From the IMG/VR virus record IMGVR_UViG_3300042538_000001, positions 1 to 45,232 of that record: 45,232 nucleotides of DNA. One strand, written 5' to 3'. This DNA comes from a virus. How positions within the stretch are numbered: the stretch's first letter is position 1; each line of letters begins with the position of its first letter. Positions 12,329-45,232 of the stretch are shown piece by piece. The position numbers and the translations under genes are program-made. The notes beneath the pieces are model-generated. The model made no database searches and was not told where the DNA came from. It saw nothing but the letters and a program-made list of their open reading frames with translations.

Positions 12329-12685
12329 ATGAAAACCGTTGATCTCAGTCAAGCTTATACGACCCACGCCGGTGAGGAAAAGTCTCTCACCCTGAGGGAG
12401 CCCAAGTTCAACGACATCATGGCTCTGGGTGAGCCGGTCGCGTCCGGCTGGATGCCTGGTGGGGTTGTCGTGCGCAACGTGAATTACGAATGCGTGCAGG
12501 GCTATGCTGAGCGCCTGGTGCAGAAGCCCTGGGACCCGGTCCTGCTCGGGCGGCTGAACGTCCGTGACACCCAGGCTGTCGTGGAGGCGATCCTTGATTT
12601 TTTTCGGCAGCCGGAGACGCCTCCGGCCGAGCCGACGAACTCGTCCTCGTCCTCGGCTGGGACGCCGGCACCGTCGGCAACCTGA
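12329..12685 (+). CDS. Tail assembly chaperone, short form (Mu gp41-like)
   Basis: A 118-residue protein of the phage tail assembly chaperone family: MKTVDLSQAYTTHAGEEKSLTLREPKFNDIMALGEP, then a helical part ending in AVVEAILDFFRQ. It holds the tape measure protein until the tube assembles around it. The last 25 residues (Pro/Thr/Ser run) are low complexity, as expected for a frame that is usually only a by-product of the overlapping reading. The ATG shares two bases with an alternative start of the leftward gene. See the frameshifted product for the long form. Confidence 0.85.
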   Translation: MKTVDLSQAYTTHAGEEKSLTLREPKFNDIMALGEPVASGWMPGGVVVRNVNYECVQGYAERLVQKPWDPVLLGRLNVRDTQAVVEAILDFFRQPETPPAEPTNSSSSSAGTPAPSAT

Positions 12686-12771: not shown

Positions 12772-14810
12772 GCCTGATGGGCGCCAGAACAATGGAAGCG
12801 CGCGCGATCATCAGCGCGCAGGACCGCACCGGCCGCGTGTTCCAGCAGGTCGCCGGCAAGATGCGCGCGCTCGATCATCAGGCCCGGGCCGTGAGCCAGT
12901 CCATGGTGGCGAGCAATGGGATGCTGGCCGCTTCCGCGCGGGCTCTCGCGCCGCTGCTGGCTCCGGTCGCCATCGGGTATGGCATCAAGACGCTTGCGGG
13001 GGAATCGCTCTCCCTCGAGCGCACGATGATCCAGGTGCAGAAGGCGACCAACGCCTCCGGCGCCGATCTCAAGGCGTATGAGCAGAACATCCTCGACCTG
13101 GCGCGCGAAACCGGCAAGTCGAAAGAGGAGATCGGCTCGATCATGGCGGCCGCCGCTTTCGCCGGGCGCCCGCTGGAAGATCTCGCCCGATACACCGCTT
13201 TTGCCGCCAAGGCGACCAGCGCCTGGGGCACCAATGCCGAGGAGACGGGCCAGGCCTTGGCCGAGCTCGGCAACATCTACAAGGCGAGTCAGGGCCGACT
13301 GGAAGAGATCGGTGACGCCATCAACCATGTGGCCGACAATGCAGCGGCCAGCGAGAAGGATCTCGTCGAGTTCCTGCGCCGCTCGGGTGCCGTTGGCAAT
13401 CAGGCCGGATTGACAGCCGAGCAGACCATCGCCTTCGGCGCGGCCATGAAGGAGGTCGGCGTCGGCACCGAGGTCGCGGCCACCACCTTCAATACGCTGA
13501 TGAACGCGATGGCGCTCGGCAACGAGTTCCTCGACGACAGCAAAGAAGGCTTCAAAGCGCTCGGGATCAACGCCGCCAAGGTGCAGAAGGAATTCGCCAA
13601 GAAGCCGCTGGAGACCACGGTCAAGCTGCTTGAACGCATCTCCAAGATCAAGGACCCGATCAAGCGTAGCCAGGTCCTGACCGACCTGTTCGGCAAGGAG
13701 TACCAGGACAACATCGCCATCCTCGCCGGGAACCTGGGCGGGCTGGAGAAGGCGCTCGGCCTCGTCGGCAACAAGGGCGCCTATGCCGGCTCGATCATGC
13801 AGGGCTTCCAGAAGGCGATGGACACCGATGTTGGCCGGATCGAACGGGCGACGCAGGCGCTGGATGTGTTGGCAACCCGCAGCGGCAACGCTTTCAAGGT
13901 GATGGCCGGCTCGGCGGCCGAGGAGATCAACAGGTTCGTCGATTCTGTCGAGAAGGGGGACACCAGCGTCCAGCGCCTCCTGACCTACTACAACGAGCTC
14001 CAGAAGGGGCGCGATGGAACGAACGACATCCAGAGCCCGGCGGAGGATCTCAACCGCTGGGCCGAGGAAAACTGGGGCCGGTTCACACCCCGAGCGCTGT
14101 TCGATGAGTATTTCGGACGGACCGGCGCGGAGGCGCGGGCGAAGGGTCAGTCCGCGGCCATTGCTGAGGATGTGGCGCGAGAGAACGAAGCCTTGGCGCG
14201 GGAGGCACGGGCGCAGCGGGCCCGTGACGAGGCGCAGCGCCGCCTGACAGGCGGGCCCTTATTGCCCTCTGAGCGCCGTCGGTTCGAGCTGGAGCGCGGA
14301 CGGGCGGAGGACGAGCTCAGGGCAGCGGCTCCCGCTGCCACAGAGATCCGTCGCACCCGCGCGGCCTTGCCGGGCCAGGTGGCGGATCTTGAGCGCCGGG
14401 TGGCGTCGGGTGATCGGCTGATGTCCTTCGCCCGTCCCCCGAGCGAGCCGGTCTTTCAGGCCGGTCCAGGCCTGCTGTCGTTCGCACCGAACCGCTCGGG
14501 TATGGCCCTGACTGGTGGTCTCACCGGCAAGGCCGAGGCGGTGGTCTCCCAGCCAGTCGACGTGACCGGCAAGGTCGAAGCTGTGCTCTCCCAGCCGATT
14601 GATCTCACCGGCAAGGTCGAAGCTGTGGTCACACAGCCGGTCGACGTGACCGGCAAGGTCGAGGCTGAAATCGTCGGGCAGGCCACTGTCAACGTGCGGG
14701 TGCAGGTCGAGGGTGGCGGGCGTGTCGTCGGCATGGGGGCGGAATCCACTGGCAATATCCGCGCCAATCTCGGCACCTCCATGCCGCACATCAAAGCAGG
14801 ACCGCGATAG
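12768..14810 (+). CDS. Tail tape measure protein
   Basis: A 680-residue tape measure that sets tail length and is ejected with the DNA. It has an N-terminal helical region, a hydrophobic segment (about residues 43-65), a phage-tail minor domain (ETGKSKEEIGSIMAAAAFAGR...), long charged helices between residues 430 and 560, and a C-terminal repeat region. The repeats (about 585-640) are four units of a 14-residue motif, TGKVEAVVSQPVDV-like. The final segment is beta-rich. The start overlaps the chaperone frameshift stop. The length fits a short-to-medium contractile tail of roughly 100 nm by the usual 0.15 nm per residue rule. Confidence 0.92.
   Translation: MSLMGARTMEARAIISAQDRTGRVFQQVAGKMRALDHQARAVSQSMVASNGMLAASARALAPLLAPVAIGYGIKTLAGESLSLERTMIQVQKATNASGADLKAYEQNILDLARETGKSKEEIGSIMAAAAFAGRPLEDLARYTAFAAKATSAWGTNAEETGQALAELGNIYKASQGRLEEIGDAINHVADNAAASEKDLVEFLRRSGAVGNQAGLTAEQTIAFGAAMKEVGVGTEVAATTFNTLMNAMALGNEFLDDSKEGFKALGINAAKVQKEFAKKPLETTVKLLERISKIKDPIKRSQVLTDLFGKEYQDNIAILAGNLGGLEKALGLVGNKGAYAGSIMQGFQKAMDTDVGRIERATQALDVLATRSGNAFKVMAGSAAEEINRFVDSVEKGDTSVQRLLTYYNELQKGRDGTNDIQSPAEDLNRWAEENWGRFTPRALFDEYFGRTGAEARAKGQSAAIAEDVARENEALAREARAQRARDEAQRRLTGGPLLPSERRRFELERGRAEDELRAAAPAATEIRRTRAALPGQVADLERRVASGDRLMSFARPPSEPVFQAGPGLLSFAPNRSGMALTGGLTGKAEAVVSQPVDVTGKVEAVLSQPIDLTGKVEAVVTQPVDVTGKVEAEIVGQATVNVRVQVEGGGRVVGMGAESTGNIRANLGTSMPHIKAGPR
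14520..14681 (+). repeat. 42-bp tandem repeats in the tape measure gene
   Basis: Units begin at 14520, 14562, 14604 and 14646 (the last is shortened). Each encodes the 14-residue pattern G-K-(A/V)-E-A-(V/E)-x-x-Q-(P)-(V/I)-D-(V/L)-T. Units are similar but not identical at DNA level, so they have diverged after duplication. In-frame gain or loss of units would change tail length slightly. Confidence 0.85.
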
Positions 14811-19869: not shown

Positions 19870-20828
19870 TGAAGTATCAAGCCCCGACAGGTGCAGCCGA
19901 TCCGAGCGAGGGTTATGTTGGCCGCAACCTTGCGGCGGGTCTTCAGGGCTCCCGCATTCCGCCAAAGGCGGTTGAGCATCCCCAGCGTGAGCTGGACCAC
20001 CTCATCGCGTATGCCAACCAATTGCGCCCGGCCGATGTGGACCCGCCCACCGAGGGCGACTTGCAGCAAGTCCGCAAGGCCATCGAAGGCCTAATCAACT
20101 ATTACATCGACAACATCGGTGCGGGCGCGGGTTTTGTGCTCGAGGCCGATGCCTATGCCAACCTCCCCATCTTTCCCGAAATCGTCACGGGCGGCGGCAA
20201 CCTCACGATCAACGCGAGCGGCGGCTCAGTGGTGGTGGCAACCGGGCAAGAGTGGACTTGGCGCGGCATTAAGCGGTTTAGCTCTACCAATATCCCGGTG
20301 GGCGAGCGCACCTTTGCTACCCTCGCCAATAAAACCTATCACCTCCGGTGGTACCCCCCAGGCTCACCCCAGGCGCCTTTGCCTGCCAACCCCAACGGCC
20401 GCTTTTACCTTCGCGATGTGGCTGATGCCGGTTACAATCCGGCCGCCTACACCGAGGTAAATGCAAACCTCGATACGCGTTATGATGATATGCTCGTTGC
20501 TCGCGTGGTGACCAACGGCAGCAACGTGGCCAACATCACCCCGGTTTATAACCGCACCCGGCTCGAGGCGGCGCTCACGCCCACCATCAACATCACGAAC
20601 AACAGCGGCGCGGATGATTCCAGCGGCTCGGCCACCGTTGCTCTCAATTGGGGGCGCACGCCCAATGTGACGGCCAGCATCAAGAACGCCACCAACATCG
20701 GTGCCTCGGGGGTGGCCGACGTTGACCATTCAATCGATTGGTCAGGCGTGACCCGATACGGGCTCACAATCACAATGGTGCGCGACTATGCCTCGCAAAT
20801 GATTGCGGCCGTTCATGTGTGGAGTTGA
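19869..20828 (+). CDS. Tail fibre / tail protein N-terminal adaptor-like
   Basis: A 319-residue protein that begins one base before the gp48 stop ends (TGATG). The N terminus (YQAPTGAADPSEGYVGRNLAAGLQGSRIPPKAVEHPQREL) looks like a baseplate-attachment segment. The rest is beta-rich, Asn/Gly/Thr-rich (NLTINASGGSVVVATGQEW...), with a C-terminal domain ending in HVWS. The same VWS ending occurs in the collagen-like fibre (21842), so the two may share a C-terminal domain. It is likely a fibre or fibre-adaptor, although no receptor-binding motif is recognised. Confidence 0.65.
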   Translation: MKYQAPTGAADPSEGYVGRNLAAGLQGSRIPPKAVEHPQRELDHLIAYANQLRPADVDPPTEGDLQQVRKAIEGLINYYIDNIGAGAGFVLEADAYANLPIFPEIVTGGGNLTINASGGSVVVATGQEWTWRGIKRFSSTNIPVGERTFATLANKTYHLRWYPPGSPQAPLPANPNGRFYLRDVADAGYNPAAYTEVNANLDTRYDDMLVARVVTNGSNVANITPVYNRTRLEAALTPTINITNNSGADDSSGSATVALNWGRTPNVTASIKNATNIGASGVADVDHSIDWSGVTRYGLTITMVRDYASQMIAAVHVWS

Positions 20829-28414: not shown

Positions 28415-28662
28415 TCGTGGAAACCTTCCCTATTCGAATAACGATTGCGCTCGCACCAGCTGACGAAGGCGTTGATGTCCTCTATCGACGCGCGCAGGTT
28501 GAGCTGATCGGTCGGTCCGCTGGAGGCCTGCCGCTTGCGGCGCACGACGGGCTCGCGGCTCGGAAATCCCAGCACTTCGGCCTGAGCTTTCGGCAGCTCC
28601 TGGCGCGGCGGGATATCCTCTGGGCGGTCGGGTTGAATCTCATCGAGCCAACGGTTGGTCAC
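28387..28662 (-). CDS. Small partition protein, ribbon-helix-helix-like (ParG/ParB-type partner of ParA)
   Basis: A 91-residue basic protein encoded directly after ParA (GTGA overlap, GTG start with AAGGAG upstream). The N-terminal half is Pro/Arg-rich and flexible. The C-terminal 40 residues (TDQLNLRASIEDINAFVSWCERNRYSNREGFHELV) have the strand-helix-helix look of an RHH dimer. In type Ib partition systems such proteins bind the centromere and activate ParA through a flexible arginine tail. It would bind the GCTA repeats at both ends of the operon and repress the operon. Confidence 0.7.
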   Translation of the reverse strand: MTNRWLDEIQPDRPEDIPPRQELPKAQAEVLGFPSREPVVRRKRQASSGPTDQLNLRASIEDINAFVSWCERNRYSNREGFHELVKLIASK

Positions 28663-29345
28663 GCTGCCATCTCCTTCGCCGGCACAAGATAGCTAATGAG
28701 CTCATTCACGAGCGTCCGGGCGTTTTCCCTGGCCTTGTCGATCTGATCTGCCGTCGCTTTGGTGCGGGGCAGGGCCGACAGGGGCACTTTCTTCCGGAAG
28801 ATCGCGCGGTAGGGCTGGCGATCGTGCAGCTGCGTCTCGAAGCACGGGATGTTGTTGGCCCTCACCTCCTCCACCAGCTCGCGCTCAAGTGTGGATTTCA
28901 CGGCCACGGGTGTGCGGGTCCAGAGCACCCGATGCGCAATCTGGCGACCGAAGCTCTTCTCCTCGGCACGCACCAGGCGGACGGCTTTGGCGGCCTCGTC
29001 AGCGTCCAGATCGCTCGGCTGCAGCGGGATCACCACGAACTGGCTGCGCCCAACGGCGCGCGACATCAGGAGTGAGCCAGCGCCTTCCAGGTCGCAGATC
29101 ACGAACTTCGCACGGGTGCGGGCTTCGTCGAGCTTATCGACGATATCAAGCTCGTCGGTGGTCTGGATGATTTCGATCGGCAGACCTGCGATCGCGGTGC
29201 CCCATCTCTTGGCGATCGGCTTGTTCCTGTCGCAATCGAAGATGATCACTGAAGCTCCCATTTCCGCGAGGGTGGTGGCGAGCACGACTGCTGTCGTCGT
29301 TTTACCCGCGCCCCCTTTGGGGCTCGCTACTGCTAGAACCGGCAT
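28659..29345 (-). CDS. parA: ParA-type partition ATPase
   Basis: A 228-residue ParA without an N-terminal HTH, i.e. a small type Ib partition ATPase. Deviant Walker A KGGAGKTTT (residues 10-18), a Walker A' region (FDCDRNKP), Walker B FVICDLEG and a VIPLQPSDLDADEA segment are all present. ParA moves replicated plasmid or chromosome copies apart. In a phage without integrase this points to prophage maintenance as a plasmid. Upstream (29346-29487) lies an array of GCTA repeats. Confidence 0.92.
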   Translation of the reverse strand: MPVLAVASPKGGAGKTTTAVVLATTLAEMGASVIIFDCDRNKPIAKRWGTAIAGLPIEIIQTTDELDIVDKLDEARTRAKFVICDLEGAGSLLMSRAVGRSQFVVIPLQPSDLDADEAAKAVRLVRAEEKSFGRQIAHRVLWTRTPVAVKSTLERELVEEVRANNIPCFETQLHDRQPYRAIFRKKVPLSALPRTKATADQIDKARENARTLVNELISYLVPAKEMAA

Positions 29346-33607: not shown

Positions 33608-34468
33608 TCAGGCGGCCTGCCGGGTGGCGCCGAGCTTCTGCGCCAGGATCTCCCGCAGGCGGTTCGCCAGCACGACGGCGACGCCGATGTTGCGCTTCTG
33701 AGCTGAGATGGTGCGGGCGTTTCCGATCTCCTCCTCGAGGTTGATCTCGTCGAACACATCGAACAGGGCAGATCCTGCATTGCACCAGTGCGGATTCTCG
33801 GCGAGAACCTCGCAGATCGCGACGATGACGGGAGCGATGAGCAGCCCGACGTTGCCATCGTTGGTCTGGGTCACGCACTGCAGGGCCGTGATGACCGTGT
33901 CGCGGCCGTGGCGCTTAAATGCCTTCTCGATCGTAGAGACGGCCATGGTCTGGCCCGCCTTCTGCTCGGTCGCAGCAACCGGATAGCGCAGGATTTCGAC
34001 CTCAGCGCAGTCGCAGGCCTCCTTGACTGCGATCGCCTCCTCATCGCCGGCGAGAAGCGCGGCGTGAAACGTCGCCATCGGGCTCATCTTGGTGGTGGCC
34101 CCGTTGATGGCCTTGAAGGCGGCTGCCTGGCCCTTCTGGTCGACAAGGATGATCGCACACGGCACCTGCTCGATGCCGCAGATCGCGGCGGCTGTGGTAC
34201 GGTGCTGGCCGTCGACGATGGCATACTTGCCGCCCGGTACCGGGGATACAATCACCGGGGCAAACTTCGCCCAGGAAAACTCCTCGACAATCCGGTTGAT
34301 GTTACTGCGTCCGACGCGGGTGATCTCACGCTGGTACGAAACATCGACGATCAGGTCAGCGATCGCGATCCACTGCAGCATCGCAGCGGGCCCAAAGTCT
34401 TTCGCAGCCGAAACGGAGCCGTAGCCCGTGGTCATAATGCTGCGAACCTGGGTTCCTTCTGGTGACAT
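33608..34468 (-). CDS. ParB/sulfiredoxin-domain protein (DUF6551-like)
   Basis: A 286-residue protein with a ParB-like nuclease/CTPase fold motif (GGKYAIVDGQHRTTAAAICG) and conserved DVSYQRE and NRIVEEFSWAKFAPVIVSP. No clear centromere-binding HTH follows. It is likely a standalone ParB-like enzyme rather than part of the partition system (parA is 5 kb away with its own small partner). GGAG lies before the ATG at 34468. Role unknown; possible nuclease or nucleotide enzyme. Confidence 0.8.
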   Translation of the reverse strand: MSPEGTQVRSIMTTGYGSVSAAKDFGPAAMLQWIAIADLIVDVSYQREITRVGRSNINRIVEEFSWAKFAPVIVSPVPGGKYAIVDGQHRTTAAAICGIEQVPCAIILVDQKGQAAAFKAINGATTKMSPMATFHAALLAGDEEAIAVKEACDCAEVEILRYPVAATEQKAGQTMAVSTIEKAFKRHGRDTVITALQCVTQTNDGNVGLLIAPVIVAICEVLAENPHWCNAGSALFDVFDEINLEEEIGNARTISAQKRNIGVAVVLANRLREILAQKLGATRQAA

Positions 34469-40469: not shown

Positions 40470-40969
40470 TGTCCGATTTTCACGCTCACGATGAAGCCGG
40501 CCGCCTCTCTCTCTCGGCCACCGCCCGCAACCGTCTCAAGCTTGCCGCCAAAGAGCTTCGCAATCTCACGGGGCTCACCCTGCAGGAGATTGCCGACCGC
40601 GTTGGCGTGTCCAAGTCGCAATGGCACAACTATGAGTCTCTCGACGCTCCGGATCTGGTCCCGGTGCATGTCTACCTGCCGCTCGAGCTGGAGCTGGGTC
40701 GCGCGCCGGTGACCCGCGCGCTGGCGTCGATGAACGGTCTCTCGGTGATGACGGGTGCGCAGATGCAGCACCAAGCCCGCGTCAACGAGCTTGTGGCGCA
40801 GGTGGCCCGCGAGCAGGGCGAGGCCCTGGCGGAGCTCGCCAGCGCCGCCGCCGACGGCACATTCTCGCGCAATGAAGCCAAAAGGCTCGATGCTGAATTC
40901 GCCGACGTGGAGCAGGTTGCCGGGGTCGTGCGCACGCTCGCGGCCCAGATCCTCGCAGACAAGGGCTGA
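40470..40969 (+). CDS. HTH early regulator, possibly CII-like
   Basis: A 166-residue protein from GTG 40470 (CAGGAG upstream). HTH: LRNLTGLTLQEIADRVGVSKSQWHNYES. The C-terminal half is helical with a QARVNELVAQVAREQGEALAEL coiled-coil-like stretch and acidic end. An ATG at 40382 in the same frame is possible but lacks a ribosome site. It precedes the primase by 4 bases. Role could be activator of repressor synthesis or replication regulator. Confidence 0.65.
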
Positions 40970-40973
40970 CAGC

Positions 40974-42158
40974 ATGGCCCGAGGGCAACGTGATCTGGCC
41001 TTCGAGGATTGGGTGCACGACGCGAGGTCGGTGCCGATCCTGCAGGCCGCGCAAGAGCGTGGCGCGCGCCTCAAGGGCGCCCGCGAAAAGATCGGACCGT
41101 GTCCCGCCTGTGGTGGACGCGACCGTTTCAGCATCAACACCGTCAAGGGCATCTTCCACTGCCGTGCCTCGGCGAAGGGCGGCGACGTCATCGCCCTCGT
41201 GCAGTATCTCGACGGGGTCGATTTCCTCGGCGCCTGCGAGCGTCTGACCGGCAGCCCGCCGCCGCGCGGCACATCCACGATCGATCCCGCCGAGCTCGCC
41301 CGCAAAGCCGAAGAGCGCCGGACAAAGTTCCAGGAGCAGGAGCGTCAGGCGCGCTGGCACCGCGAGCAGGAGCGCCGCCGCCTGTATGCCATGTGGCAGG
41401 CCGGTCAGCCGGTCCCGGGCTCACCGGTCGAGGCCTATCTTGCCTTGCGCCTTGTGGTGCTGCCTGCCGGCGCAGCCGTCCGTTATCTGCCCGAGGCGCA
41501 GCTTTACGCCTCGGGCGCCAAGGACGCCAAAGTCATCCACACTGGCCCCGCCATGATGGCGGCCGTCATCGGTCCGGAGGATCGCTTCGTCGGCCTGCAC
41601 CTGACCTGGATCAATCTCGCGGATGCCGACGGCAAGGCGCGCGTCGCCGATCCCGAAACCGGCGAGGTCGAGGCTGCCAAGAAGATGCGCGGCTCGATCG
41701 GTGGCGGTCGCATCGAGCTGGTGCGCTGCGCCGAGCCGCAGCGCCTGGTGCTGGGCGAGGGGATCGAGGAGGTGCTCTCAGTCTATCGTGCCCTGCAGGC
41801 TGCCGGTTGGGATCTGTCGCGCACTGCCTTTTGGACGGCGCTCAGCCTCGGCAATCTCGGCGGCCCGCATCGCGGCTCGGTCGAGCATCCGACCCAGCGC
41901 CGCACCGATGCGCGCGGCCGGGATCTCGGCCCGCAGAAGGTTCCGGGCGACGTGCCGGATCTCACCGTCCCGGCGATCCCGGTGCCGGACAGTGTCACCG
42001 AACTCGTGCTGCTGGGTGATGGTGATTCCGATCGCTTCACCACCGATCTCGCGCTGCGCCGTGCAGCACGCCGTCATGCCCGCCGGGGGCGCACGATCCG
42101 GGCGGTATGGTCGCCCGCCGGAGGCGACTGGAACAAGCTGCTGCGGGGCGCTGCATGA
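40974..42158 (+). CDS. DNA primase (CHC2 zinc finger + Toprim)
   Basis: A 394-residue primase. Zinc finger near the N terminus with C43, C46, H62 and C63 (GPCPACGGRDRFSI...GIFHCR), then a linker of charged residues (about 110-150), and a Toprim domain with VLGEGIEEVLSVYRAL and LLGDGDSDRF. It makes primers for phage replication and works with the SF3 helicase encoded two genes downstream. The stop overlaps the next ATG (ATGA). Confidence 0.92.
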   Translation: MARGQRDLAFEDWVHDARSVPILQAAQERGARLKGAREKIGPCPACGGRDRFSINTVKGIFHCRASAKGGDVIALVQYLDGVDFLGACERLTGSPPPRGTSTIDPAELARKAEERRTKFQEQERQARWHREQERRRLYAMWQAGQPVPGSPVEAYLALRLVVLPAGAAVRYLPEAQLYASGAKDAKVIHTGPAMMAAVIGPEDRFVGLHLTWINLADADGKARVADPETGEVEAAKKMRGSIGGGRIELVRCAEPQRLVLGEGIEEVLSVYRALQAAGWDLSRTAFWTALSLGNLGGPHRGSVEHPTQRRTDARGRDLGPQKVPGDVPDLTVPAIPVPDSVTELVLLGDGDSDRFTTDLALRRAARRHARRGRTIRAVWSPAGGDWNKLLRGAA

Positions 42159-42736
42159 TGAGGCAAGGCGCGTCGCAGCATGCCCATAAGGATCGCGGGC
42201 ACGATCTCTACGAAACCCCGGCCATAGCCACTCAGGCGCTGCTGCGCGTCGAGCGCCTGGCGCCGCGCGTGTGGGAGCCGAGCGCAGGTCGCGGCGCGAT
42301 CATGCGCGAGTTGCTCAGCGCTGGGCATCAGGTGGTAGCCTCGGATCTCATCGCTTATGCGGGCGCGGATGCCGGGATCGAGACCTCGGTCGATTTCCTC
42401 GACGTCCAGCAGGCGCCAGCCGGCTGCACCGACCTGGTGACCAACCCGCCCTACAAGCTCGCCAATGCCTTCGTGCGGCACGGCCTCACTCTGGTGCCGC
42501 GCGTCATCGTTCTGCTGCGGCTGATGGCGCTCGAAGGCGCGCGCCGCTCCGATCTGATTGACCGGCACCTGGTGCGGGTCTGGGCTGGCATCGAACGGCT
42601 GCCGGCCATGCACCGTGAAGGTTGGGACGGGCCGAAGCTCAAGGCCTCGGCGGCACCGTTCGCATGGTTTGTTTTCGAGGCCAAAGAGCGCGGCGACACG
42701 CCGATCGAGCTGCGGCGCATGTCGTGGAGAGCGTAA
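42155..42736 (+). CDS. Adenine-type DNA methyltransferase-like
   Basis: A 193-residue class I methyltransferase: SAM motif VWEPSAGRGAIMRELL and catalytic NPPY in TDLVTNPPYKLANAF. The FxxC-type specificity domain seems absent, so it may be a minimal orphan enzyme with a small target-recognition region or an RNA/protein methylase. It is embedded in the replication operon, between primase and helicase, with overlapping start and stop (TAATG). It could mark phage DNA against restriction. Confidence 0.8.
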   Translation: MMRQGASQHAHKDRGHDLYETPAIATQALLRVERLAPRVWEPSAGRGAIMRELLSAGHQVVASDLIAYAGADAGIETSVDFLDVQQAPAGCTDLVTNPPYKLANAFVRHGLTLVPRVIVLLRLMALEGARRSDLIDRHLVRVWAGIERLPAMHREGWDGPKLKASAAPFAWFVFEAKERGDTPIELRRMSWRA

Positions 42737-44514
42737 TGAACACCAACGATCCTCTCAGCCAGATCGCCGCGGCGGTGGGAGCCGCGCCCGTGATTGATCT
42801 CGGCCAGGATCTCGCCGAGGCAGATGACGCCTTCGTGCCGGAAGACGAGGCCTCGTTCGAGGATGATGGAGCTGAGCCTCCGGAGCCACCGGAGGAGGGC
42901 GCGGCGGTCAATCAGGACATCCTCGCGGATTGCGCCAGACTGGAGCAGAACGACACCGACAACGGCCAGCGCCTGCTGCGGCATTTCGGGGACAGCGTGC
43001 TGCACGTGCGCGAAGTCGCTTGGCATGCCTGGACCGGCACGCACTGGGATCCGGATGGCGGCACCGAGGCCGTCGAGCGTTTCGCCCAGAAGACGGCCAA
43101 GCGCATCGCGCTCGAGGCTCCGTTTCTGAATCCCTCACCCCGCGATCGCGACGCGATCAAGGCGGCCGAGCCTCTGAAGGGTAAGCCCTTCGACACGCTG
43201 ACCGACGCCGAGAAGGAAACCTTGAAGGGCGGGCAGCGGGCAGAGGAGAATTTAGGGAAACGGCGCGGCGACCGGCGCAAGTTCTCGGTCTCCTGCGGCA
43301 ACCGCGCCCGCACGGTGGCGATGATTGCCCAGGCTCTGCCACACCGCACCGTGGGCCCGCACGACCTCGATGCTGATCCGATGCTGTTCAACGTCCAGAA
43401 CGGCACTCTGCGGTTTGTACGCAAAGTGGTCGAGGTCGAGGATCCGGAGTGCCCGGATCCGAATGAGCGCCGCATGATCCGCCAGGTCGAGGCCTCGGTC
43501 GAGCTACTGCCGCACAACCGCGGGCACCTGATCGCCAAGATCTCGCCCATGACCTACGACAAGGCGGCAACGTGTCCGCGCTTCACGGCTTTCCTCGATC
43601 GCTTCCAGCCGGACGAGGAGCAGCGGCGCTACCTGCAGCTTGCCGTCGGCCGTGCGTTGCTCGGGGGTGCTTCCACTCAGGTGCTGATCTACCTCTACGG
43701 CGATGGCGCGAACGGCAAGTCGGTGTTCATGGAAACGATCGCCGAGCTGCTCGGCGCCTATGCCGGGCGCCTCAAGCCGGAGTCGATCTCTGGCAACCTG
43801 GAGGGGCGGGGCGATCAGGCCACGCCGGATTTCGCGCGGCTGCAGGGCAAGCGCTTCGTCGGCATTGCCGAGCTGCCGCGCGGCGCACCGCTGCGCGAGG
43901 GTCTGGTGAAGACGATGACCGGCGGCGAACCGATCCCGGTTCGCCACCTCAACAAGGGCTTTTTTGACCTCACGCCTGAGTTCATTCCCTTCATGTCCGG
44001 CAATGAGCTGCCTGACGTGGGCGGTCTCGATCACGGAATCTGGCGTCGCCTCAAGTTCGTGCACTGGCCGGTGAAGATCCCGGACGGCGAGCAGCGTCCG
44101 CTTAAGGAGGTGGTCGGGGAGTTCTGCGCGGAGAGTGCCGGCATCCTCAACTGGGCGATCGAGGGAGCGCTGCACTTCCTGCGCGAGGGTCTCAAGGAGC
44201 CCGCGGCCGTCACCGCTCTCACCGCCTCCCACCGTGAGGATCTCGATCCGGTTGGCGCCTTCGTGCGCGATTGTGTGGTCGCTGTTCCGGGTTCGGATGT
44301 GCAGGCCCGTATGCTGTTCGAATCCTTCCGCAGCTACTGCGAGGCCAATGCCATCAGGCCATGGACCGAGAAGACGTTCGCGCTGGCCATGAAGAAGAAG
44401 GGCTTTGTGCGCGAGGACAAGCGCATCCGGCGCTGGATCGATATCGACCTGCAGGATGTGCCGCAGCGCCCTGAGCCCCGCAGCCCCTATGGAGAGCCGA
44501 CCTATGGAAATTGA
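42736..44514 (+). CDS. SF3 helicase (D5-type primase/helicase C-terminal)
   Basis: A 592-residue protein. The N-terminal 60 residues are acidic and disordered. Residues about 65-270 resemble the D5_N/phage-P4 type middle region. The helicase has Walker A LYGDGANGKS (about residues 320-329), Walker B-like GIAELPRG and the arginine/sensor segment FIPFMSGNELPDVGGLDHGIWRRLKF. The C-terminal 70 residues form a winged helix-like region. It should unwind the origin next to its own 3' end. No primase catalytic domain is present, consistent with the separate primase gene. Confidence 0.92.
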   Translation: MNTNDPLSQIAAAVGAAPVIDLGQDLAEADDAFVPEDEASFEDDGAEPPEPPEEGAAVNQDILADCARLEQNDTDNGQRLLRHFGDSVLHVREVAWHAWTGTHWDPDGGTEAVERFAQKTAKRIALEAPFLNPSPRDRDAIKAAEPLKGKPFDTLTDAEKETLKGGQRAEENLGKRRGDRRKFSVSCGNRARTVAMIAQALPHRTVGPHDLDADPMLFNVQNGTLRFVRKVVEVEDPECPDPNERRMIRQVEASVELLPHNRGHLIAKISPMTYDKAATCPRFTAFLDRFQPDEEQRRYLQLAVGRALLGGASTQVLIYLYGDGANGKSVFMETIAELLGAYAGRLKPESISGNLEGRGDQATPDFARLQGKRFVGIAELPRGAPLREGLVKTMTGGEPIPVRHLNKGFFDLTPEFIPFMSGNELPDVGGLDHGIWRRLKFVHWPVKIPDGEQRPLKEVVGEFCAESAGILNWAIEGALHFLREGLKEPAAVTALTASHREDLDPVGAFVRDCVVAVPGSDVQARMLFESFRSYCEANAIRPWTEKTFALAMKKKGFVREDKRIRRWIDIDLQDVPQRPEPRSPYGEPTYGN

Positions 44515-44870
44515 CCCTCGCTCGCGCGCCAGTGCTCTCTCCGACGGGAGAAAAAGCCGCATGGCACAAGCATGTCCGGATCTGTACCGCGAGGGTTGCG
44601 AGGGTTTTGCGAGGGATGCTTTCGACCCTCGCAGAGCAAATAGAGATTTTTTATCAGTGGCTTAACGGCAGGGCGCGAGGGTTGCGAGGGTTGCGCGCCC
44701 GCTACGTATAAGCAAAGGGGCTCCGGGGAGAGAAATAAGAGTTCAATCTATACACGTTAGGAGGGTTAACCCTCGCAACCCTCGCAAACATAAAATAAGA
44801 TATTGAAAACGCTGTGAAATTTGAATTGCGAGGGTTGAAAACGACCCTCGCGGACCATCGCAACCCTCGC
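44514..44870. other. Candidate replication origin: twelve iterons and AT-rich core
   Basis: The 9-bp motif GCGAGGGTT (or close variants) occurs twelve times in about 360 bp: plus-strand copies at 44589, 44598, 44609, 44675, 44684 and 44828; minus-strand copies at 44514, 44625, 44768, 44777, 44844 and 44862. Direct pairs are spaced exactly 9 bases (44589/44598, 44675/44684, 44768/44777). Between 44786 and 44827 lies a roughly 42-bp stretch of about 75% AT. The region has no coding gene. Iterons plus AT-rich DNA beside a primase-helicase pair resemble P4-type origins. Confidence 0.75.
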
Positions 44871-44892: not shown

Positions 44893-45232
44893 ATGAAGAA
44901 GCGGATTACCATCGAGAATTTGCTGCGCTGGACCTACAGGGATGAGTTGCCCAAGGAGCAGGCCTCAGGCGGCTTCCTGCGTCCGGCAGGTTTTGGCGGG
45001 GCCTGGGGCGGGATCGAGCGCTACGGCGAGATCCTGACCATCGTCGACGAGTCCAAGGAAAACCGCTTTGGCTTGGTGCCGGATCTCTCAGCCGCCAACG
45101 ATCCTCATCCGGACGCCGTCCGGGTCGGGGAGGCCGTGCGGGCGCTCGATGGCTGCGCCCTGTGTCTGCCCGCAGACTGGAACCCGCTCGCCGACTGGTC
45201 GAGCCTTGCCGAAGAGGGCCAGCGCGCCGTGC
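44893..45232 (+). CDS. Conserved phage protein of unknown function, 5' part (continues at position 128)
   Basis: ATG at 44893 starts the gene that continues after the circle junction to 681 (total about 297 residues). The N terminus MKKRITIENLLRWTYRDELPKEQ is basic and helical, followed by a Gly-rich GGFLRPAGFGGAWGG segment. It lies 22 bases after the last iteron. Position beside the origin suggests a replication-associated or packaging-linked role. The weak ribosome site is GGGGGCGGGC. Confidence 0.75.
   Translation, partial: MKKRITIENLLRWTYRDELPKEQASGGFLRPAGFGGAWGGIERYGEILTIVDESKENRFGLVPDLSAANDPHPDAVRVGEAVRALDGCALCLPADWNPLADWSSLAEEGQRAV
45106..45232. repeat. 127-bp terminal repeat, right copy
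   Basis: Identical to 1-127. See left copy: marks a circular assembly, and one copy should be removed, giving a genome of 45,105 bp. Confidence 0.9.

Follow-up and report, generated by a model that had tools for sequence, protein, structure and literature searches.

The known kinds of array closest to the one described here are alpha and ori of phage P4 and the pri-rep-ori modules of PICIs and SaPIs. The alpha protein of P4 is a fused primase-helicase. The annotated ori of the P4 record contains six type-1 iterons (-9310, -9320, -9331, +9353, -9396 and -9406), and crr, comprised of two 120-bp repeats, lies about 4.5 kb away. The origin-binding domain of alpha belongs to the RFX1-like winged-helix class (PMC10516667). 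Through a C-terminal domain, SaPI Rep and SCCmec Cch2 bind iterons located a short way 3' of their own genes, and they are believed to work as two hexamers (PMC7581432). PICI origins are found 3' of rep and consist of two iteron sets that flank an AT-rich region; the pri-rep-ori segment of EcCICFT073 sustains a plasmid. Two further kinds are of interest: a noncoding, ori-like element of 302 bp that belongs to the replication module of the tailed phage Sfi21 (PMC6356513), and Rep-iteron plasmid origins of the Rep_3 type, in which short repeats and AT-rich DNA are found near the initiator gene.

The locus considered here is part of a viral record of 45,232 nucleotides (IMG/VR record IMGVR_UViG_3300042538_000001); "the window" denotes this whole stretch. 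An array of 9-bp iterons directly 3' of a gene for an SF3 helicase of the P4 family is read as a probable replication origin, used by a temperate phage through its own helicase as proposed below (probability roughly 0.88, judged from the sequence). No description of the array was found in the open-licence literature. The features are as follows.

40755..42158, plus strand: gene for a DnaG-like primase (zinc ribbon, Toprim; phrog_510, 2e-64)
42622..44514, plus strand: gene for the P4-family SF3 helicase, the putative initiator (D5_N, DUF5906 and Pox_D5 regions)
44513..44521, minus strand: extra iteron GCGAGGGTC, overlapping the helicase stop codon and outside the symmetric array
44589..44617, plus strand: left outer iteron triplet (44589-44597, 44598-44606, 44609-44617)
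44624..44632, minus strand: left inverted iteron
44634..44674, no strand: left arm, 56% AT
44675..44692, plus strand: left inner tandem iteron pair
44693..44767, no strand: dyad core, centre at about 44730, including TACGTATA, GGGGCTCCGGGG and TATACACGT
44717..44728, plus strand: G element GGGGCTCCGGGG, an instance of the core element GGGG-N1-5-GGGG
44768..44785, minus strand: right inner tandem iteron pair
44786..44827, no strand: right arm, 79% AT
44828..44836, plus strand: right inverted iteron
44843..44870, minus strand: right outer iteron triplet (44843-44851, 44853-44861, which is degenerate, and 44862-44870)
44896..45232 (start), plus strand: gene 3' of the array (phrog_9306), about 294 aa if continued through the 127-bp terminal repeat

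The iteron GCGAGGGTT occurs in 8 exact copies within 44589-44870 and in one stray copy at 19906, compared to 0.69 exact copies expected in the whole window and at most 3 in 100 shuffles. Allowing for up to one mismatch, exactly 12 copies are found on both strands of 44513-44870. An earlier sequence-only reading, which had proposed an iteron origin of twelve repeats around an AT-rich core, was thus right about the cluster itself, about its two orientations and exact 9-bp tandem pairs (44589/44598, 44675/44684 and 44768/44777), and about its position in a noncoding gap bounded by the helicase stop (TGA, 44512-44514) and by a gene that begins at about 44896. The figure of twelve holds for near-exact copies; one of these is the copy at 44513-44521, and the twelfth site of the symmetric array is instead the degenerate GCGATGGTC at 44853-44861 on the minus strand. 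Iterons scattered over many unrelated places, named beforehand as evidence against an origin, were not observed: the best 7-mer count per 400 bp is 12 at the array and at most 5 elsewhere in the window, with no second iteron cluster. The GC-skew profile proposed as a check places the cumulative minimum at 12370 and the maximum at 45030; the array is near the maximum, not the minimum, and skew is uninformative here as an origin marker. Bidirectional origins do not usually show such a maximum, but skew in phages can be governed by the orientation of genes.

The array consists of two halves of six iterons each (>>> < >>), mirrored about position 44730. The left half reads +44589, +44598, +44609, -44624, +44675, +44684, and the right half -44768, -44777, +44828, -44843, -44853 (degenerate), -44862. 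All six mirror pairs agree within 1 bp, four of them exactly; both outer pairs are off by 1 bp, and a description of the symmetry as perfect was dropped. Random positions gave a mean of 2.5 mirror pairs, and none of 60 trials reached six. Controls with shuffled strands are weak for single loci. The core between the halves comprises 75 bp with 48% AT, and single-strand folding of the core is no better than that of shuffles, so that a role in secondary structure was discarded. The AT-rich block that the earlier reading had placed at the centre (44786-44827) is in fact the right arm, between inner and outer repeats, and probably acts as the duplex-unwinding region.

Each half corresponds to the P4 ori in having six iterons in the order >>> < >>, with spacings of 9, 11, 15, 51 and 9 in the window half and 10, 11, 22, 43 and 10 in P4; in both, an AT-rich arm lies between the inverted site and the inner pair. 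The iteron sequences differ, as does the arrangement: P4 has one six-site ori at a distance from crr, whereas the window has two facing halves directly 3' of the helicase gene, and in place of a separate ori and crr with a fused primase-helicase there is a single array with a separate gene for a DnaG-like primase. Like the PICI/SaPI-type pri-rep-ori, which follows rep, the array follows the helicase gene immediately, as arrays do in 121 of 157 relatives (see below), and it comprises two iteron sets, as for SaPI5 Rep and EcCICFT073. The two PICI sets flank AT-rich DNA, whereas here the sequence between the halves is 48% AT and the AT-rich DNA is found in the right arm; the intervening stretch contains GGGG-N-GGGG and purine/pyrimidine elements. 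PICIs are satellites, whereas the window is an entire tailed phage and encodes head and tail proteins itself. The Sfi21 element resembles the locus in its general description: it is noncoding and ori-like, and it is found among the replication genes of a tailed phage. Rep_3-type origins share short repeats and AT-rich DNA near an initiator gene; they and RPA-type origins differ in that no Rep_3 or RPA gene was found in the window, and the putative initiator is itself a helicase. By analogy, the array would work like a P4 or PICI origin. It is a member of neither type as strictly defined, because it belongs to a whole phage, is accompanied by a separate primase and joins two P4-like halves.

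The comparison with P4 also suggests another reading, in which the array is a helicase-binding enhancer or cis-required region like crr and the strands are opened elsewhere in the genome. The P4 iterons located directly downstream of alpha are those annotated as crr, and the P4 ori is about 4.5 kb away. Against this, the window has no second iteron cluster, the array includes an AT-rich arm, and each half has the orientation pattern of the P4 ori, not of crr; we consider a crr-like role improbable.

The assignment of the helicase to the P4 family is based on TIGR01613 (NCBIfam 'phage/plasmid primase, P4 family'; 210.3 bits, cut-off 108.7), and the Pfam search gave D5_N at 2.4e-20. The full protein matches the SaPI5 primase-helicase 7ola by sequence and by fold, and its AlphaFold2 model has a mean pLDDT of 88. 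The model predicts a C-terminal winged helix at residues ~543-610 (pLDDT ~95 in the domain), of which residues 583-592 form helix 3 and residues 596-610 the wing strands. For the isolated tail, the best fold in the PDB is the RFX1 DNA-binding domain (1dp7), followed by RFX5 and the tail of ASFV PrimPol; the similarity is modest (best E 2.9e-3), and the 50 matches listed do not include the structure of the P4 domain. The tail is thus predicted to be an RFX-like winged helix, corresponding to the C-terminal origin-binding domain of the P4 type. A gene for a DNA methyltransferase (phrog_799; 42107-42736, plus strand) is found between the primase and helicase genes and overlaps both open reading frames.

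Relatives were identified in two ways. The 18-mer GCGAGGGTTGCGAGGGTT, a tandem pair, was retrieved from 60 viral contigs, most of which show the same +/- arrangement; 52 of these 60 contigs, picked solely by the 18-mer, encode a homologous helicase in the same locus, and several others end at the contig edge. A second set was collected by helicase similarity alone, to avoid circularity. Searching contigs with the single helicase protein gave no matches; an alignment of helicases retrieved the relatives. A comparison of the 377-bp region with named phages yielded a single chance match, because the iteron word differs between phages, and relatives were reached through the helicase instead.

Any repeated 7-mer in the 560 bases past the helicase stop was evaluated against 100 shuffles. 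A significant repeat family, exceeding all shuffles, is present in 121 of the 157 non-redundant loci selected through the helicase. The remaining 36, RR1-A and BPP-1 among them, have no such family by this simple 7-mer count, which misses weak or divergent origins. Control regions (one within the helicase gene, one 2.4 kb upstream, and two downstream at 0.9 and 1.5 kb) gave 2/173, 8/166, 6/168 and 8/163 (1-5%), compared to 135/171 at the origin. Repeats of the GCGAGGG kind account for only 13 of the 121 loci; other iteron words are AGGGACG, GGGAGGA, GATAGTT, TGCACCA, GCAGGGT and TGTAGGG, as well as TGTTACT in Bacillus phage phi105 and GGGAGGCTA in AmM-1. Same-strand repeats at the helicase-selected loci are spaced most often by 9 bp (312 instances, next 67). 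Relatives with clear iterons mostly show 3-6 mirrored pairs and never more than 6; Pan4 and others have a variant half (> > > then >>>), again with six sites. The same layout is also found in prophages within bacterial chromosomes. The cultured phages AmM-1, RcapNL (a Rhodobacter phage), Pan4 and phi105 have arrays of this kind built from other iteron words, and the annotation rows listed for these arrays include no origin label. We note that clades are unevenly sampled, mostly from Alphaproteobacteria.

The core between the halves has conserved elements of its own. At the 102 loci whose centre can be defined, the longest run of alternating purines and pyrimidines has a mean of 13.5, compared to 6.7 in shuffles; the run in the window is short (9). 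The element GGGG-N1-5-GGGG is located on the helicase coding strand in 60 of the 102 loci and on the opposite strand in none, with 1.9 expected. Collapsed to 61 helicase clades, a run of at least 12 is present in 40 and the G element in 37. These elements are separate from the iteron, because they are found together with different iteron words. Averaged across relatives, the right arm has 62% AT and the left arm 47%.

Distances between iterons were compared with distances between proteins by partial Mantel tests. At the helicase-selected loci, the iteron follows the C-terminus when the ATPase is controlled for (partial r 0.22; reached in 0 of 1000 permutations) and, weakly, the ATPase when the C-terminus is controlled for (partial r 0.11); with only the 44 clearest loci, these coefficients become 0.36 and 0.04. 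Since the ATPase also shows a correlation, shared ancestry may account for some of the signal. An initial partial r of 0.41 was overstated and discarded; its set included loci chosen by iteron sequence. In a sliding scan with 22-column blocks, residues 583-604 or 587-608 rank first at every threshold; in the predicted winged helix they correspond to helix 3, the recognition helix, and to the wing. From the covariation and the structural model we infer, with good support, that the helicase binds the iterons of the array.

These observations also bear on a reading in which the repeats are operators: bound to them, the helicase or a phage repressor would control transcription of the following gene or of the helicase operon, and replication would be initiated at another site. 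The extra iteron overlaps the helicase stop, inverted pairs can serve as operators, and the genome encodes a CI-like S24 repressor and a CII-like regulator. Against this reading, in relatives too the array comes after the helicase gene, and the repeat word varies with the tail of the helicase; moreover, some 12 sites over ~280 bp, in a two-fold layout matching the annotated P4 ori, exceed what an operator needs. We regard operators as very improbable in place of an origin; a regulatory role is possible as a second function beside it.

In the preferred reading, an origin used by the adjacent helicase, the C-terminal winged helix would recognize the 9-bp iteron, and the six iterons on each side of the dyad at 44730 would nucleate one hexamer, one iteron per subunit, resulting in a head-to-head pair of hexamers. 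The AT-rich right arm, the core, or both would then be melted and the helicases loaded, after which the neighbouring DnaG-like primase, whose role at the array is plausible, would start synthesis. The linkage in relatives, the conserved geometry and the covariation with the tail uphold in essence the origin suggested by the sequence-only reading, which was incomplete in having missed the two-fold layout. A more general scheme is tentative, and we rate it at somewhat below even odds: a shared modular origin of two inverted six-iteron halves (an iteron per subunit, two hexamers) around a directional core (purine/pyrimidine tract and one-strand GGGG-N-GGGG). In this scheme, helix 3 and the wing would determine the 9-bp word, which would change freely between phages, whereas the core would be conserved across words and would position strand opening or priming. 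The P4 ori would then represent one half.

A 127-bp direct terminal repeat (1-127 = 45106-45232) indicates that the record is probably complete, with a genome of 45105 bp (~45.1 kb). With genes for terminase, portal, head protease/major head, sheath, tape measure and baseplate, and with the CI-like repressor named above, it reads as a contractile-tailed temperate phage. A 42-bp tandem repeat (3.5 copies, 14523-14667) is located within the tape measure gene. A ParA gene (28659-29345, minus strand) and a ParB-like gene (33608-34468, minus strand) are present; searches of the genome for tyrosine and serine recombinases gave no match to an integrase. A search of the window for initiators of the Rep_3 and RPA types found none. 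The array is therefore the only replicon recognised in the genome, and the suggestion that it is a second replicon besides a par-linked one finds no support: ParA and ParB-like genes are present, but no second Rep gene was found.

With ParA and ParB-like genes and no integrase found, the phage is probably a phage-plasmid, and it is reasonable to suppose that the array may also serve a plasmid-like prophage. A 46-kb circular plasmid of Methylobacterium currus (NZ_CP089299.1) has the same iteron, a close helicase, ParA and an S24 repressor; it also carries type I-E cas1/cas2 genes. That the array is a parS-like partition site bound by the phage ParB is hardly credible even with ParA and ParB-like genes present and iteron-like centromeres in existence, given its distance of ~10 kb from the ParB-like gene, the same layout in chromosomal prophages and a repeat sequence that tracks the helicase tail.

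That many full-size temperate phages have a closely similar layout, in which the iteron word changes along with the helicase tail, provides a natural data set that bears on the recognition code of self-loading SF3 helicases. It makes the stoichiometric idea of six sites for one hexamer testable. For a large group of uncultured phages and prophages, moreover, the sequence by itself suffices to locate the origin.
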